Source: Gilliamella sp. WF3-4 (GTDB lineage Bacteria > Pseudomonadota > Gammaproteobacteria > Enterobacterales > Orbaceae). From it: a DNA stretch of 64,000 nt. The notes below the pieces were generated by a model. That model was not told the DNA's origin and ran no database searches. It saw only the letters and a list, made by a program, of their open reading frames with translations. Made by a program: the position numbers and the translations under genes. Shown here in pieces: positions 10,327-35,878 of this stretch. The stretch is taken from positions 124,001 through 188,000 of the forward strand of contig NZ_LZGW01000045.1 in assembly GCF_001690275.1 (NCBI RefSeq), read 5' to 3'. Each line of letters opens with the position of its first letter. Within the stretch, counting starts at the first letter, position 1.

Positions 10327-10713
10327 GAAATTAACCAGACAATCGCTGCTTTGTTGTAGTCCTTTATTAAAGGAGACGAACAAAGGGGAGGAAAGTCCGG
10401 GCTCCATAGGGCAGAGTGCCAGGTAACGCCTGGGGGGCTTTTGCGAGAGCAAAAGTTTACGACAAGTGCAACAGAGAGCAAACCGCCGATGGCTTATTAA
10501 TAAGATCAGGTAAGGGTGAAAGGGTGTGGTAAGAGCACACCGCGCAATTGGTAACAGTTGTGGCATGGTAAACTCCACTCGGAGCAAGGTCAAATAGGGA
10601 TTCTTTGGCGCGGCCCGCGTTGAATCCGGGTAGACTGCTTGAGCTAATACGTGAGTATTAGCCTAGAGGAATGATTGTCCACGACAGAACCCGGCTTATC
10701 GGTTAATTTCAAT
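10327..10713 (+). ncRNA. rnpB: RNase P catalytic RNA (class A)
   Basis: This is the ribozyme that removes 5' leaders from pre-tRNAs together with RnpA. Conserved core blocks are plain: GAGGAAAGTCCGGGCTCC near 10388, CAGTGCAACAGAGAGC-type sequence near 10465 (here AAGTGCAACAGAGAGCAAAC), AGGTAAGGGTGAAAGGGTG near 10508, AACTCCACTCGGAGCAAGG near 10570 and CCACGACAGAACCCGGCTTA near 10679. The ends GAAATTAACC (10327-10336) and GGTTAATTTC (10701-10710) form a perfect 10-bp P1 helix, followed directly by AATTTTTCTT, so P1 may also serve as terminator stem. Apparent ORFs overlapping this region on both strands are spurious. Confidence 0.97.
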
Positions 10714-10737
10714 TTTTCTTAACTTTGCTCATTAATA

Positions 10738-11454: not shown

Positions 11455-12912
11455 TTATTGGCTAATGGTACCACCAACGGTTAAATTATTCACTTTTAAT
11501 GTAGGTTGTCCGACTCCAACAGGAATGCTCTGTCCTGCTTTACCACAAACGCCAACACCAGAATCTAATTCAAGGTCATTACCAACCATTGACACCTGTT
11601 GCATCGTTTCAATGCCAGAACCAATTAGTGTTGCACCTTTTACTGGTGTTGTTATTTTGCCTTTTTCAATCAAATAGGCTTCTGAGGTTGAAAAGACAAA
11701 CTTACCAGAGGTAATATCTACCTGTCCTCCCGCAAAATTAGGGGCATATAGCCCATAATCAACACTGCTAATAATATCGTCAAAGGAAGAATTGCCAGCT
11801 AACATATAGGTATTTGTCATTCTTGGCATTGGTAAACACGCATACCCTTCACGACGCCCATTACCAGTTGAATATGTATTCATCAATTTTGCGTTGAGTT
11901 TATCGAACATATAGCCCTTTAAAATGCCATTTTCAATAAGCACTGTTTTTTGGCTAGGCGTTCCTTCATCATCAATAGAGAGTGACCCGCGTCGATTTTC
12001 GATAGTGCCATCATCAACAATAGTACACAATTCTGAGGTAACTTGTTCACCTATTTTTCCTGAAAAAACCGAGGTGTTTTTGCGGTTAAAGTCACCTTCC
12101 AAGCCATGCCCTACCGCCTCATGTAACAATACACCAGGCCAACCAGCACCTAAAACAACGGGCATTGTTCCTGCTGGCGCTGCTTTAGCTGAAAGAGCAA
12201 CAAGTGCTAGGCGTACCGCTTCTCGAGTATAGCTATCAACATAACTTTCTGTCGTTTTAGGATTAGTGGTTAAAAAATATTCATAACCAAATCTTCCACC
12301 ACCACCGCTACTTCCTCGTTCGCGTTTACCTGATTGTTCAACTAGCACAGAAACAGATAATCGAGCCAAAGGCCGAATGTCGGCACGTAATGTACCATCA
12401 GTCGTTGCGATTAAAATATCTTCGTAGCTCCCTGTTAAACTGCATGATACTTCGATAACTCTTGGGTCAATTGAGCGTGCCAATTTGTCAACTTTTTGCA
12501 ACAATGCAATTTTCTGCTCTTGAGAAAACGAATTGATTGGGTTGATTGAAGGGTATATTGGCACTGTTTGCGTAGACTTAAACGGAGTTACTACTATAGG
12601 TGTTTGTAATTTAGTTATTGAATTTGCTGCTAATACACTTTGTTCTAAACGTGCTAACGAAAGTTGATCTGTATATGCAAACCCCGTTTTTTCACCGGCA
12701 ATAGCCCTAACGCCAACACCTTGATCACGGTGAAATGAGGCATTTTTTATAATACCATCTTCAAGTAACCAACTTTCATAGTAACCCGATAAGAAATACA
12801 AATCACCAAAATCAATTTGCCTTGCGCTAAGCATATCAAGCAGATGTAAAAGATCTTGTTGGTTTAGATTATTTGGATTGAGTAATCGTTCACTCACTTG
12901 ATTTAGTATCAT
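11455..12912 (-). CDS. tldD: Metalloprotease subunit TldD
   Basis: TldD forms a heterodimeric Zn protease with TldE (PmbA) that degrades unfolded peptides and matures microcins and other modified peptides. The 485-residue protein matches E. coli TldD nearly end to end. The Zn-binding HExxxH motif appears as [12 protein letters not shown], and the C-terminal [20 protein letters not shown] segment contains further conserved residues. The N terminus (LNQVSERLL) supports the first Met. In E. coli yhdP lies between rng and tldD; here only about 140 bases separate rng and tldD. Confidence 0.95.
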
Positions 12913-23284: not shown

Positions 23285-23484
23285 TTTCGTAACAGAAGTT
23301 GCAAAAACGAAGAGGCGCATTACTCAGGTAAATCATTTTAGGAACTGGAGCCACTAATAAATGATTGAGGGGATGTAATGCCGAGGTTTGATTGCCAATC
23401 CAGAAGCAATCAAATCGACTGCAAGGGCTGAATCCCTTGGGTTGTCACCTTAACAGGTGGAGCGCTTCACGGTTTGTGCTTTTT
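23285..23484 (+). promoter_or_regulatory. Lysine riboswitch (L box) controlling lysC
   Basis: The conserved core is recognisable from the E. coli lysC leader: GAAGAGGCGC (from 23309), ACTGGAGCCA, the block GAGGGGATGTAATGCCGAGG (23368-23387), GGGCTGAATCCCTTGGGTTG (23428-23446) and GGTGGAGCGCTTC (23456-23468). P1 can form between GCAAAAACGAAG and CTTCACGGTTTGTGC with one mismatch and a small bulge. The expression platform may be a short terminator, AGCGC (23461-23465) with GTGCT (23476-23480), followed by TTTT; it overlaps the 3' strand of P1, which fits a lysine-dependent switch. Known family role: lysine binding lowers lysC expression. Confidence 0.93.
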
Positions 23485-34392: not shown

Positions 34393-34569
34393 CTATTTAT
34401 TATCTAACTTATCATCATTTTGGGGTTCAATATCATCGTCATTCATTGCTTTCTTGAAGCCTTTTAATGCTGAACCAAGATCAGAACCTAAATTACGCAA
34501 CTTTTTAGTGCCAAATAATAAAATAACGACAGCAAGAAACACTAAAAGGTGTGGAATACTAAAAGACAT
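34393..34569 (-). CDS. tatA: Twin-arginine translocase subunit, TatA/TatE type
   Basis: TatA oligomers form the pore that moves folded proteins with RR signal peptides across the inner membrane. The 58-residue protein has one membrane helix (about 4-18, [20 protein letters not shown]), the hinge [10 protein letters not shown] and an amphipathic helix [16 protein letters not shown], followed by a short acidic tail. The start is ATG 34569, with AGAGGAT upstream. It is shorter than E. coli TatA (89) and near TatE (67). tatB and tatC are not adjacent. A -10 like TATAAT on the - strand lies at 34640-34645. Confidence 0.92.
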
Positions 34570-34683
34570 AATCAAATCCTCTTAATAAATATAACGCTCT
34601 ATTTAGGGTAGACTTTAGAACATATTTTATGGAGTGATCATTATACTCTTTTTATGAAGGGATTTCATAAATAGTTCAAGAAT

Positions 34684-34766
34684 AAAAAAAGACCTGTATA
34701 AAACTATACAGGCCAACATGAAATATAAGGAATATAAGGAAAGAAAACAATGAAAAATCCTTACCC
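34684..34766 (-). ncRNA. Predicted small regulatory RNA, about 83 nt
   Basis: The - strand carries a compact unit: -35 TTGACT (complement of 34794-34799), a 16-base A-rich spacer, -10 GATAAT (complement of 34772-34777), a purine start near 34766, and an intrinsic terminator GGCCTGTATA-GTTT-TATACAGGTC followed by seven T (34714 down to 34684). The transcript would begin GCAGGGTAAGG or GGGTAAGG and contains the tandem repeat TTCCTTATA TTCCTTATA, whose complement AAGGAA is a ribosome binding site. No protein gene on the - strand explains this promoter and terminator. I recognise no known sRNA family. A 29-codon ORF lies on the opposite strand (34750-34839). Confidence 0.55.
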
Positions 34767-34771
34767 TGCTT

Positions 34772-34799
34772 ATTATCCATTTTTTTTCGCTTTAGTCAA
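34772..34799 (-). promoter_or_regulatory. Promoter of the predicted small RNA
   Basis: TTGACT and GATAAT each match five of six consensus bases, with 16-base spacing. The spacer includes an unbroken run of eight A. Confidence 0.6.
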
Positions 34800-35185: not shown

Positions 35186-35878
35186 ATGAATACAATTAAA
35201 AATAATAATGTTAAAACTTTTAAAGATAGATTGCTCAGCTCTATGCAAGGTTTATCTGTTTCAGCCTTCGCTAAAAAATGCGATATGTCCGAAACGGTAA
35301 TTCGAGACTACTTATCTGGCAAAACTTACCCTTCACTGACACGTTTGGAAGTCATCGCTGAAAAATGTAATGTTTCTTTTAATTGGCTTGCTACTGGTCA
35401 TAAACTAGAGTTTGTAGATTCTAAAAATAGCGATGAAGATATCTACAGCGAAAATATTTATCGCATTCCTGTTTATAATAAACAACTACCAACAAAAGAG
35501 GAAGCACAAAAAGAACGTTTTGTAAGAGAAACCCCTCCATTGATGAATTATCCTATCATTGAGGGTTGGGCTAAGCACCGTGGCTTAGATGCTAAAAAAT
35601 TAATTATATACTGGGCCAAAGGCGATTTAATGTCACCAGAAATCGAAAACAATAATGGACTAATTCTTAACACTGAAATAACAGGTATTGTTGATGGTGC
35701 AATTTATCTAATTGAATACGAAGATATTACCTTTTTAAGAAAGGTTCGTTTAACACTTAATGGTTGGTTATTAATTTGTAATAATAGCCAGAATCCAACC
35801 ATTGAAGTTCCCAAGTCAGATTTTCATAAATATCATATTGTAGGCCGTGTTGTTCTTCTTATTAAAGACATATTTTAA
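35186..35878 (+). CDS. XRE-type HTH regulator with an S24/LexA-like domain lacking the catalytic serine
   Basis: The 230-residue protein is built like a phage CI or LexA-like repressor. An N-terminal helix-turn-helix (about 11-70, with LSVSAFAKKCDMSETVIRDY) is followed by a linker and a peptidase S24-like dimerisation domain (about 130-228). In active members the nucleophile lies in a GDSM motif; here residues 146-149 read GDLM, with Leu148 (codon TTA). The general-base region reads TFLRKVRL, where Arg185-Lys186 stand near the usual Lys. It is therefore unlikely to self-cleave in response to RecA. No phage genes surround it. The downstream ABC exporter is a possible target. Confidence 0.8.
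   Translation: MNTIKNNNVKTFKDRLLSSMQGLSVSAFAKKCDMSETVIRDYLSGKTYPSLTRLEVIAEKCNVSFNWLATGHKLEFVDSKNSDEDIYSENIYRIPVYNKQLPTKEEAQKERFVRETPPLMNYPIIEGWAKHRGLDAKKLIIYWAKGDLMSPEIENNNGLILNTEITGIVDGAIYLIEYEDITFLRKVRLTLNGWLLICNNSQNPTIEVPKSDFHKYHIVGRVVLLIKDIF

Follow-up and report, generated by a model that had tools for sequence, protein, structure and literature searches.

Introduction

Spot 42 is a multi-target small RNA (sRNA), and its gene, spf, adjoins polA. LhrC/Rli22 of Listeria is present in several copies per genome and carries CU-rich motifs that face Shine-Dalgarno (SD) sequences. Listeria sRNAs have been named LhrC1-5 in a source available in part (PMC3179153). In Neisseria meningitidis, the sibling sRNAs NmsRA and NmsRB possess two UC-rich anti-SD regions, which are fully conserved in the species and act in repression by pairing over the SD; according to the available part of the source, the targets of the two siblings apparently differ (PMC5362039). 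Control of type VI secretion systems (T6SS) by sRNAs is described in the available parts of reports on Qrr sRNAs in Vibrio fluvialis (PMC11443567) and on a manganese-dependent, sRNA-mediated control in Acinetobacter baumannii (PMC11796373). Titles in the open literature, outside of which most subscription papers lie, revealed no account of a bacterial sRNA from Gilliamella or Orbaceae, nor did the open literature yield a paper on Hfq in Gilliamella or on sRNAs of Orbaceae.

Here, a candidate sRNA gene, sRNA A, is analyzed in a stretch of 64,000 nucleotides from Gilliamella sp. WF3-4 (the window), together with two siblings, B and C. These three resemble LhrC/Rli22 in being multicopy and in their CU-rich anti-SD motifs, but they belong to another phylum and carry another motif. 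Like NmsRA and NmsRB, as far as the available part of that source describes them, sRNA A has siblings and conserved anti-SD regions, and repression by pairing over the SD is predicted for it. However, the NmsRs are encoded by tandem genes and have three stem-loops, whereas the genes of A, B and C are scattered and have promoter regions of their own, and their anti-SD modules lie beside an anti-start-codon stretch, unlike those of the NmsRs. The targets also differ, being TCA cycle enzymes for the NmsRs and predicted T6SS and adhesin genes for sRNA A. The likeness concerns the way of working only, and no sequence kinship is claimed. With Qrr and the A. baumannii sRNA, sRNA A shares the control of T6SS, which is predicted for sRNA A, and the available parts of the sources gave no sign of kinship.

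Results

Identification of the sRNA A Gene

At Rfam gathering cut-offs, sRNA A had no match. The earlier note knew of no named sRNA with this sequence. Below the cut-offs, only weak matches were obtained for sRNAs A and B. The best of these by E-value was Spot 42 (RF00021; E of 0.0073 in a 221-base search), an identity that was rejected with 24.4 bits against a gathering cut-off of 80; the genomic location also differs from that of sRNA A. Identity with LhrC/rli22 (RF01457) was rejected in the same way (24.3 bits versus 80). Elsewhere in the window, gathering matches were obtained for RNase P class A RNA (10327-10714) and for a lysine riboswitch (23302-23475).

Rechecking of the coordinates returned the promoter of the earlier note, i.e., TTGACT and GATAAT separated by 16 nt, and its stem-loop with seven T as well as the two 9-nt direct repeats TTCCTTATA, abutting on the minus strand, were likewise present (Table 1). 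Consensus scans found nine promoter-like sites versus 9.3 expected from shuffles and one terminator versus 0.6 expected. Since these counts were at chance level, conservation was tested instead. Taken alone, they would fit a DNA-level element or a chance promoter-terminator pair without RNA function.

Table 1. Features of the sRNA A locus (window coordinates) and positions of the siblings B and C (G, genome; C, contig; L, locus).
Feature	Position	Strand	Remarks
sRNA A	34684..34764	-	about 81 nt; putative transcription start perhaps at 34764-34766
-35 hexamer TTGACT of the sRNA A promoter	34794..34799	-	TTGAC kept in 34/34 copies
-10 hexamer GATAAT of the sRNA A promoter	34772..34777	-	16-nt spacer to -35; spacing kept in 34/34 copies
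5' arm GUAAGGA of sRNA A	34758..34764	-	pairs with either UCCUUAU module (computed fold, base-pair probabilities)
UUUCAUUGUUUU, common to the three siblings	34744..34755	-	complement of the start codon context AAAACAAUGAAA
Seed 1, CAUUGUUUUCUUUCCUU	34736..34752	-	predicted to span the SD-AUG stretch of hcp and, with a poorer fit, that of vgrG (one genome)
Repeat copy 1, TTCCTTATA (anti-SD module 1)	34733..34741	-	
Repeat copy 2, TTCCTTATA (anti-SD module 2)	34724..34732	-	abuts copy 1
Seed 2, AUAUUCCUUAUAUUUCA	34719..34735	-	predicted cover over the SD of the inverse-autotransporter adhesin mRNA
Terminator hairpin	34691..34714	-	followed by T7 at 34690-34684
tatA/tatE-like gene (downstream neighbour)	34393..34569	-	outside sRNA A; own promoter-like site at 34668-34640
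Divergent repressor-like gene (neighbour)	35186..35878	+	helix-turn-helix/S24-type; weak matches under NCBIfam cut-offs
Sibling B	L075:834-937 (G000:C52, ~72533-72636)		between trmA and a heavy-metal (CusR-like) response regulator gene
Sibling C	L196:1391-1558 (G000:C17, ~100360)		~70 nt; between hemW and a tagatose-kinase-like sugar kinase gene

Conservation of sRNA A in Gilliamella

The sRNA A locus was found in 35 of 35 Gilliamella genomes by DNA search. The covariance search across Orbaceae that the earlier note had proposed recovered the same 35 genomes with E-values below 1e-9; among nine genomes of other Orbaceae genera, seven gave weak matches (E of 0.018 to 0.75), siblings of sRNA A among them, and two gave none. 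Conservation was counted over 34 complete copies, leaving out that of G028, which is split over two contig ends. A homologue of the repressor-like gene was present at all 34 loci.

The 5' core of sRNA A, UAAGGAUUUUUCAUUGUUUUCUUUCCUUAUAUUCCUUAUAUUUCAUGUU, was invariant at 49 of 49 positions across the 34 copies. In the adjacent tatA of the same genomes, one of 45 third codon positions and none of nine fourfold sites were invariant, third positions showed 63% pairwise identity, and the longest invariant run within the first 45 codons was 5 nt. A stretch of 49 nt that is unchanged across 34 species-level genomes is unusual. Judged by this comparison, the 5' core was shown to be under extreme selection at the RNA level. 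The arrangement TTGAC-16-GATAAT was kept in every copy (TTGACT in 30, TTGACG in 2 and TTGACA in 2), with GATAAT always 8 nt ahead of the invariant TAAGG. In an ungapped comparison, the promoter region had 82-87% pairwise identity and the flanks 34-45%. A conserved promoter and terminator between variable flanks, the pattern that the earlier note had named as support for its proposal, was thus observed.

The terminator was evaluated over 20 distinct sequences, in which 98.2% of the cells were paired. Three of its 11 pairs had changed on both sides with pairing kept, a number that is unremarkable (136 of 500 shuffles had as many), as are the ten further pair types (383 of 500 shuffles). Eleven cells had changed on both sides with pairing kept, which none of 500 shuffles equalled, and the covariation score exceeded those of all 500. 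Covariation is silent on the 5' helix because this helix is nearly invariant, with six of its seven pairs never varying. The promoter and the terminator are not significant by themselves and are raised above chance by their conservation. The reading as a DNA-level element or chance pair is hardly credible in view of the terminator covariation, the invariance of the core and the existence of siblings with the same layout.

The element might instead belong to tatA as its leader or attenuator and be no gene of its own. It is on the same strand as tatA, whose start follows the core by 141-159 nt in 32 of 34 copies. This interpretation is highly improbable: the RNA is ended by its terminator, a separate GTATAAT precedes tatA in 32 of the 34 loci, the distance grows to 343 and 470 nt in two genomes, and the siblings are located beside unrelated genes.

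Alternatively, the transcript could be, or also be, the mRNA of a hydrophobic peptide of 23-51 amino acids that starts at TTG (LFSFLIFLIFHVG...) with UAAGGA as its SD, giving a membrane peptide or a dual-function RNA. An SD-like UAAGGA does stand just before this TTG, and the frame (window 34676-34750, minus strand) runs uninterrupted through at least its first 23 codons in each of the 34 copies. Yet the core lacks any change, synonymous or other, next to a tatA with variable third positions, and thus shows none of the synonymous-type variation in a conserved frame that would mark a small-protein mRNA. Moreover, the C-terminal parts diverge and change frame, the reading frame includes the terminator, and neither SD nor peptide is kept in siblings B and C. 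The peptide is therefore considered very unlikely. Minus-strand coding from TTG (23-51 codons) or from ATG (MDNKQGKDF...) was rejected for the changeless core and for tails that differ, shift frame or stop. The plus-strand frame MKNPYPAYYPFFF..., despite a good SD, was rejected likewise (changeless core; tails of 5-65 codons that differ, shift or stop).

Accordingly, the locus is free-standing, has promoter-like and intrinsic-terminator elements of its own and is conserved at the RNA level above synonymous-type sites, as is characteristic of trans-encoded sRNAs. By its conservation, minus-strand segment 34764-34684 is regarded as a real Gilliamella (Orbaceae) sRNA gene of about 81-83 nt. The proposal of a free-standing sRNA gene with two anti-SD modules is supported by conservation in 35 of 35 Gilliamella genomes.

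Fold and Anatomy of sRNA A

The 83-nt RNA, terminator included, had a fold z-score of -4.85. The repeats lie in the middle of the RNA, where the earlier note had placed them. Contrary to that note, they are not simply unpaired, since UAAGGA at the 5' end can pair with either copy according to the computed fold. Copies 1 and 2 were computed to be unpaired with probabilities of about 0.4 and 0.5, respectively, and seed 1 is partly inside the 5' stem. The sequence UCCUUA also forms the tail of 16S rRNA. An Hfq gene is present in the host genome and the 3' U-run is within the range of 6-9 residues, both being features expected for an Hfq-dependent sRNA.

Read on the opposite strand, the core corresponds to AAGGAA..AAAACAAUGAAA, a complete SD-spacer-AUG start site. 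Two findings go beyond the earlier note: by sequence comparison, there are two sibling genes, and an entire start site of this kind is complementary to the core. The pattern AAGGAN{2,14}ACAATGAAA occurred four times in the own genome, three of the occurrences being the sRNA loci on the other strand; its reversed form occurred three times, so that a count of four is not unusual.

Siblings B and C

By its layout, sRNA A is one of three sibling sRNAs found only in Orbaceae, in each of which UUUCAUUGUUUU is followed by UUCCUU and by an intrinsic terminator with a U-run. The UUCCUU motif is present twice each in A and B; C has one UUCCUU and a UUUUCC stretch. The pattern TTCATTGTTTN{1,12}TTCCTT was found in 43 of 44 Orbaceae genomes, against four matches of the reversed control over all 44. 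All three loci were present in 32 of 35 Gilliamella genomes when scored by exact match strings; of the exceptions, G026 had A only, G027 had A with a putative B-like string, and G031, which is 59% complete, had A together with B.

In sibling B, TTTCATTGTTTTATTTCCTTTCATCCATTCCTTGCA was identical in copies from Gilliamella, Frischella, Orbus and Schmidhempelia, an invariance that is partly built in because these loci had been selected by means of a core-derived pattern. A single change, in UUUCAUUG, was present in one B copy (G021, L072). Sibling C was found in Gilliamella and two other genera. Across the order, 29 of 394 genomes had the C-type pattern; they represent three of 114 genera and are without exception Orbaceae. 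Another Orbaceae genome, of a different genus (G038), harbored two C-type matches about 430 bp apart (L183:505-671 and 936-1104) and a third elsewhere (L190). Family-pattern matches at seven loci outside Orbaceae (Anaerolineaceae, Bacteroidaceae, Clostridia, Flavobacteriales and Alphaproteobacteria) were rejected as chance, as the rest of the RNA was absent from the adjoining stretch.

The regions upstream of A, B and C are unlike one another. That of C contains a GCATAAT-type -10 and conserved TTTAC/TTTAACA elements. Upstream of sibling B in Orbus (L112/L185), TGTCAT direct repeats 11 bp apart were noticed; direct repeats at such spacing suit OmpR-family regulators. Family-pattern start regions on the other strand showed no common theme in 16 starts from 20 loci.

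Predicted T6SS Targets in the Host Genome

Pairing of sRNA A was computed against 454 start regions (444 distinct, since stretches overlap) from 727 kb of the host genome, window included; the starts were called by a simple script from open reading frames of at least 100 codons between stops. Duplex energy placed hcp at the top, followed by a vgrG and then by a VasX-like T6SS effector. By cofolding minus self-folding, vgrG, hcp, the VasX-like effector and a filamentous haemagglutinin were the top four, and three other vgrG copies were 10th, 12th and 13th, which placed all five hcp/vgrG starts in the top 13. Other genes of the T6SS cluster were not special (tssB, -10.9 kcal/mol; clpV, -18.5 kcal/mol).

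Since strong SDs attract any anti-SD RNA, controls were used in which all letters except the two UUCCUU motifs were shuffled. With 60 such controls, hcp was again first of 454 (z of -4.6). The vgrG starts had z-scores of -2.2, -2.2, -1.4 and -1.0 (ranks 13, 15, 52 and 83), the VasX-like effector -1.7 (rank 34) and the filamentous haemagglutinin -1.6 (rank 37). Taken singly, only hcp stands out by z. The mean hcp/vgrG rank was 7.6, which none of 20 further motif-preserving controls matched (best 31.6, mean 65.6 of 454); this result covers one genome, the host, and the vgrG starts are mutually related, hence not independent. The controls also ranked T6SS starts fairly high because these have strong SDs. 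Siblings B and C ranked the hcp/vgrG starts lower overall than A did, with hcp 17th for B and 9th for C. Within the pairing model, the predicted interaction with hcp, and with hcp and vgrG as a group, thus depends on letters beyond the UUCCUU motifs as well.

Seed Counts and the Adhesin Gene

The earlier note had proposed that the UUCCUUAUA seed alone lets the RNA block many mRNAs. The seed complement with a start codon, ATATAAGGAATN{0,13}ATG, occurred 129 times in the 35 genomes, versus 107 times for a flank-scrambled SD control, and the reversed patterns of the two occurred 27 and 28 times. Wide-target action through the seed is not supported by these counts.

The largest group of like strings for the seed pattern comprised 22 of 35 genomes. 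Twenty were retrieved (all but G030 and G033), and in 20 of 20 the gene was that of an adhesin, an inverse autotransporter (IAT_beta, E of about 4e-102 in two members tested). The largest group of the control pattern, defined by the match string alone, comprised 12 of 35 genomes; shared 11-mers near starts are thus not rare by themselves. The adhesin start is preceded by UGAAAUAUAAGGAAU or a close form, and the match to module 2 of sRNA A mostly spans 14-17 nt just before the start codon in 24 orthologues, 20 of which had been found with the motif itself, a bias, and four by synteny. Among those found by synteny, G003, G013 and G019 keep the 14-17 nt, and G021 keeps less, part having been lost. 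The block stands in an otherwise variable upstream region and extends beyond the SD.

Duplex energies with sRNA A were -22.3 to -32.5 kcal/mol, better than with B or C in 24 of 24 cases, and the mean z against motif-preserving controls was -3.3 (range -1.7 to -4.6). In a cofolding ranking with the 454 host starts, the adhesin starts would take places from 1st to 53rd. About the own genome, of which a quarter was read, the search for this gene was negative over that quarter, as it was over the stretches read from G002, G007 and G024 (for G024, one flank only). At its loci (L364-L383, L407, L416, L420 and L434), the gene meets a contig end in several drafts, e.g., G006:C8, G010:C78 and G020:C2; repeats near it may break draft assemblies.

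Further candidates were a GH3 glucosidase, with the gene in 15 of 35 genomes, and a 328-aa protein, with matches in 15 of 35. The latter has AAATATAAGGAAT before its start in G017, G023, G006 and G001 and lacks it at L320-L323, a judgement that leaves out L318, L319 and L324. The 328-aa protein of L240 had no Pfam match; six tandem matches to it were observed in G002:C30:7722-12747 (L326, L328 and L330-L333).

Discussion

The preferred interpretation, to which we assign a probability of about 0.5, is that sRNA A is a trans-acting and probably Hfq-dependent RNA that silences the hcp/vgrG mRNAs and the mRNA of an invasin-type adhesin by pairing from SD to AUG. Pairing over the SD and the start codon would block ribosome loading and so silence the mRNA. 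Seed CAUUGUUUUCUUUCCUU is predicted to address the T6SS tube and spike genes hcp and vgrG, and the overlapping seed AUAUUCCUUAUAUUUCA the adhesin. The SD-like 5' end UAAGGA could form an internal lid over one or the other module. Siblings B and C, whose promoter regions are unlike that of A, would let other signals reach an overlapping set of targets.

Alternatively, sRNA A may be a trans-acting anti-SD RNA with this anatomy but another regulon, perhaps a metabolic or envelope one, with the T6SS and adhesin predictions as by-products of SD pairing. This alternative is a serious contender, at somewhat less than even odds. Anti-SD seeds suit many start regions: the 328-aa protein, the GH3 glucosidase, DsbB and a cytochrome-bd-like start (reversed window, minus-strand position 11849) also score well, the 11-mer seed is hardly commoner near starts than its scrambled-flank control, and vgrG, the effector and the haemagglutinin are unremarkable singly by z. 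Against it stand the first rank of hcp by z, the joint hcp/vgrG ranks that no motif-preserving control reproduced, and an adhesin block that reaches past the SD.

A wider proposal is put forward tentatively, for we consider it rather unlikely as a whole. The three sRNAs would form an Orbaceae-private family in which the antisense of a whole ribosome binding site serves as a shared off-switch for antagonism and attachment machinery, i.e., the T6SS tube, spikes and effectors, the filamentous haemagglutinin and the invasin-type adhesin. By alternately hiding one of the two seeds, the 5' end could let the RNA choose between weapon and adhesin targets.

Gilliamella inhabits the bee gut as a symbiont. 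For bacteria of this habitat, antagonism by means of T6SS has been published and is an active field according to the available parts of the sources (PMC5727410, PMC8125069), and a published method allows genes to be deleted in bee gut symbionts (PMC11389375, available in part). As sRNA A is short, invariant and single-copy, this method makes the proposal testable. With three siblings behind separate promoter regions, the family offers a compact model for the divergence of sRNA families.
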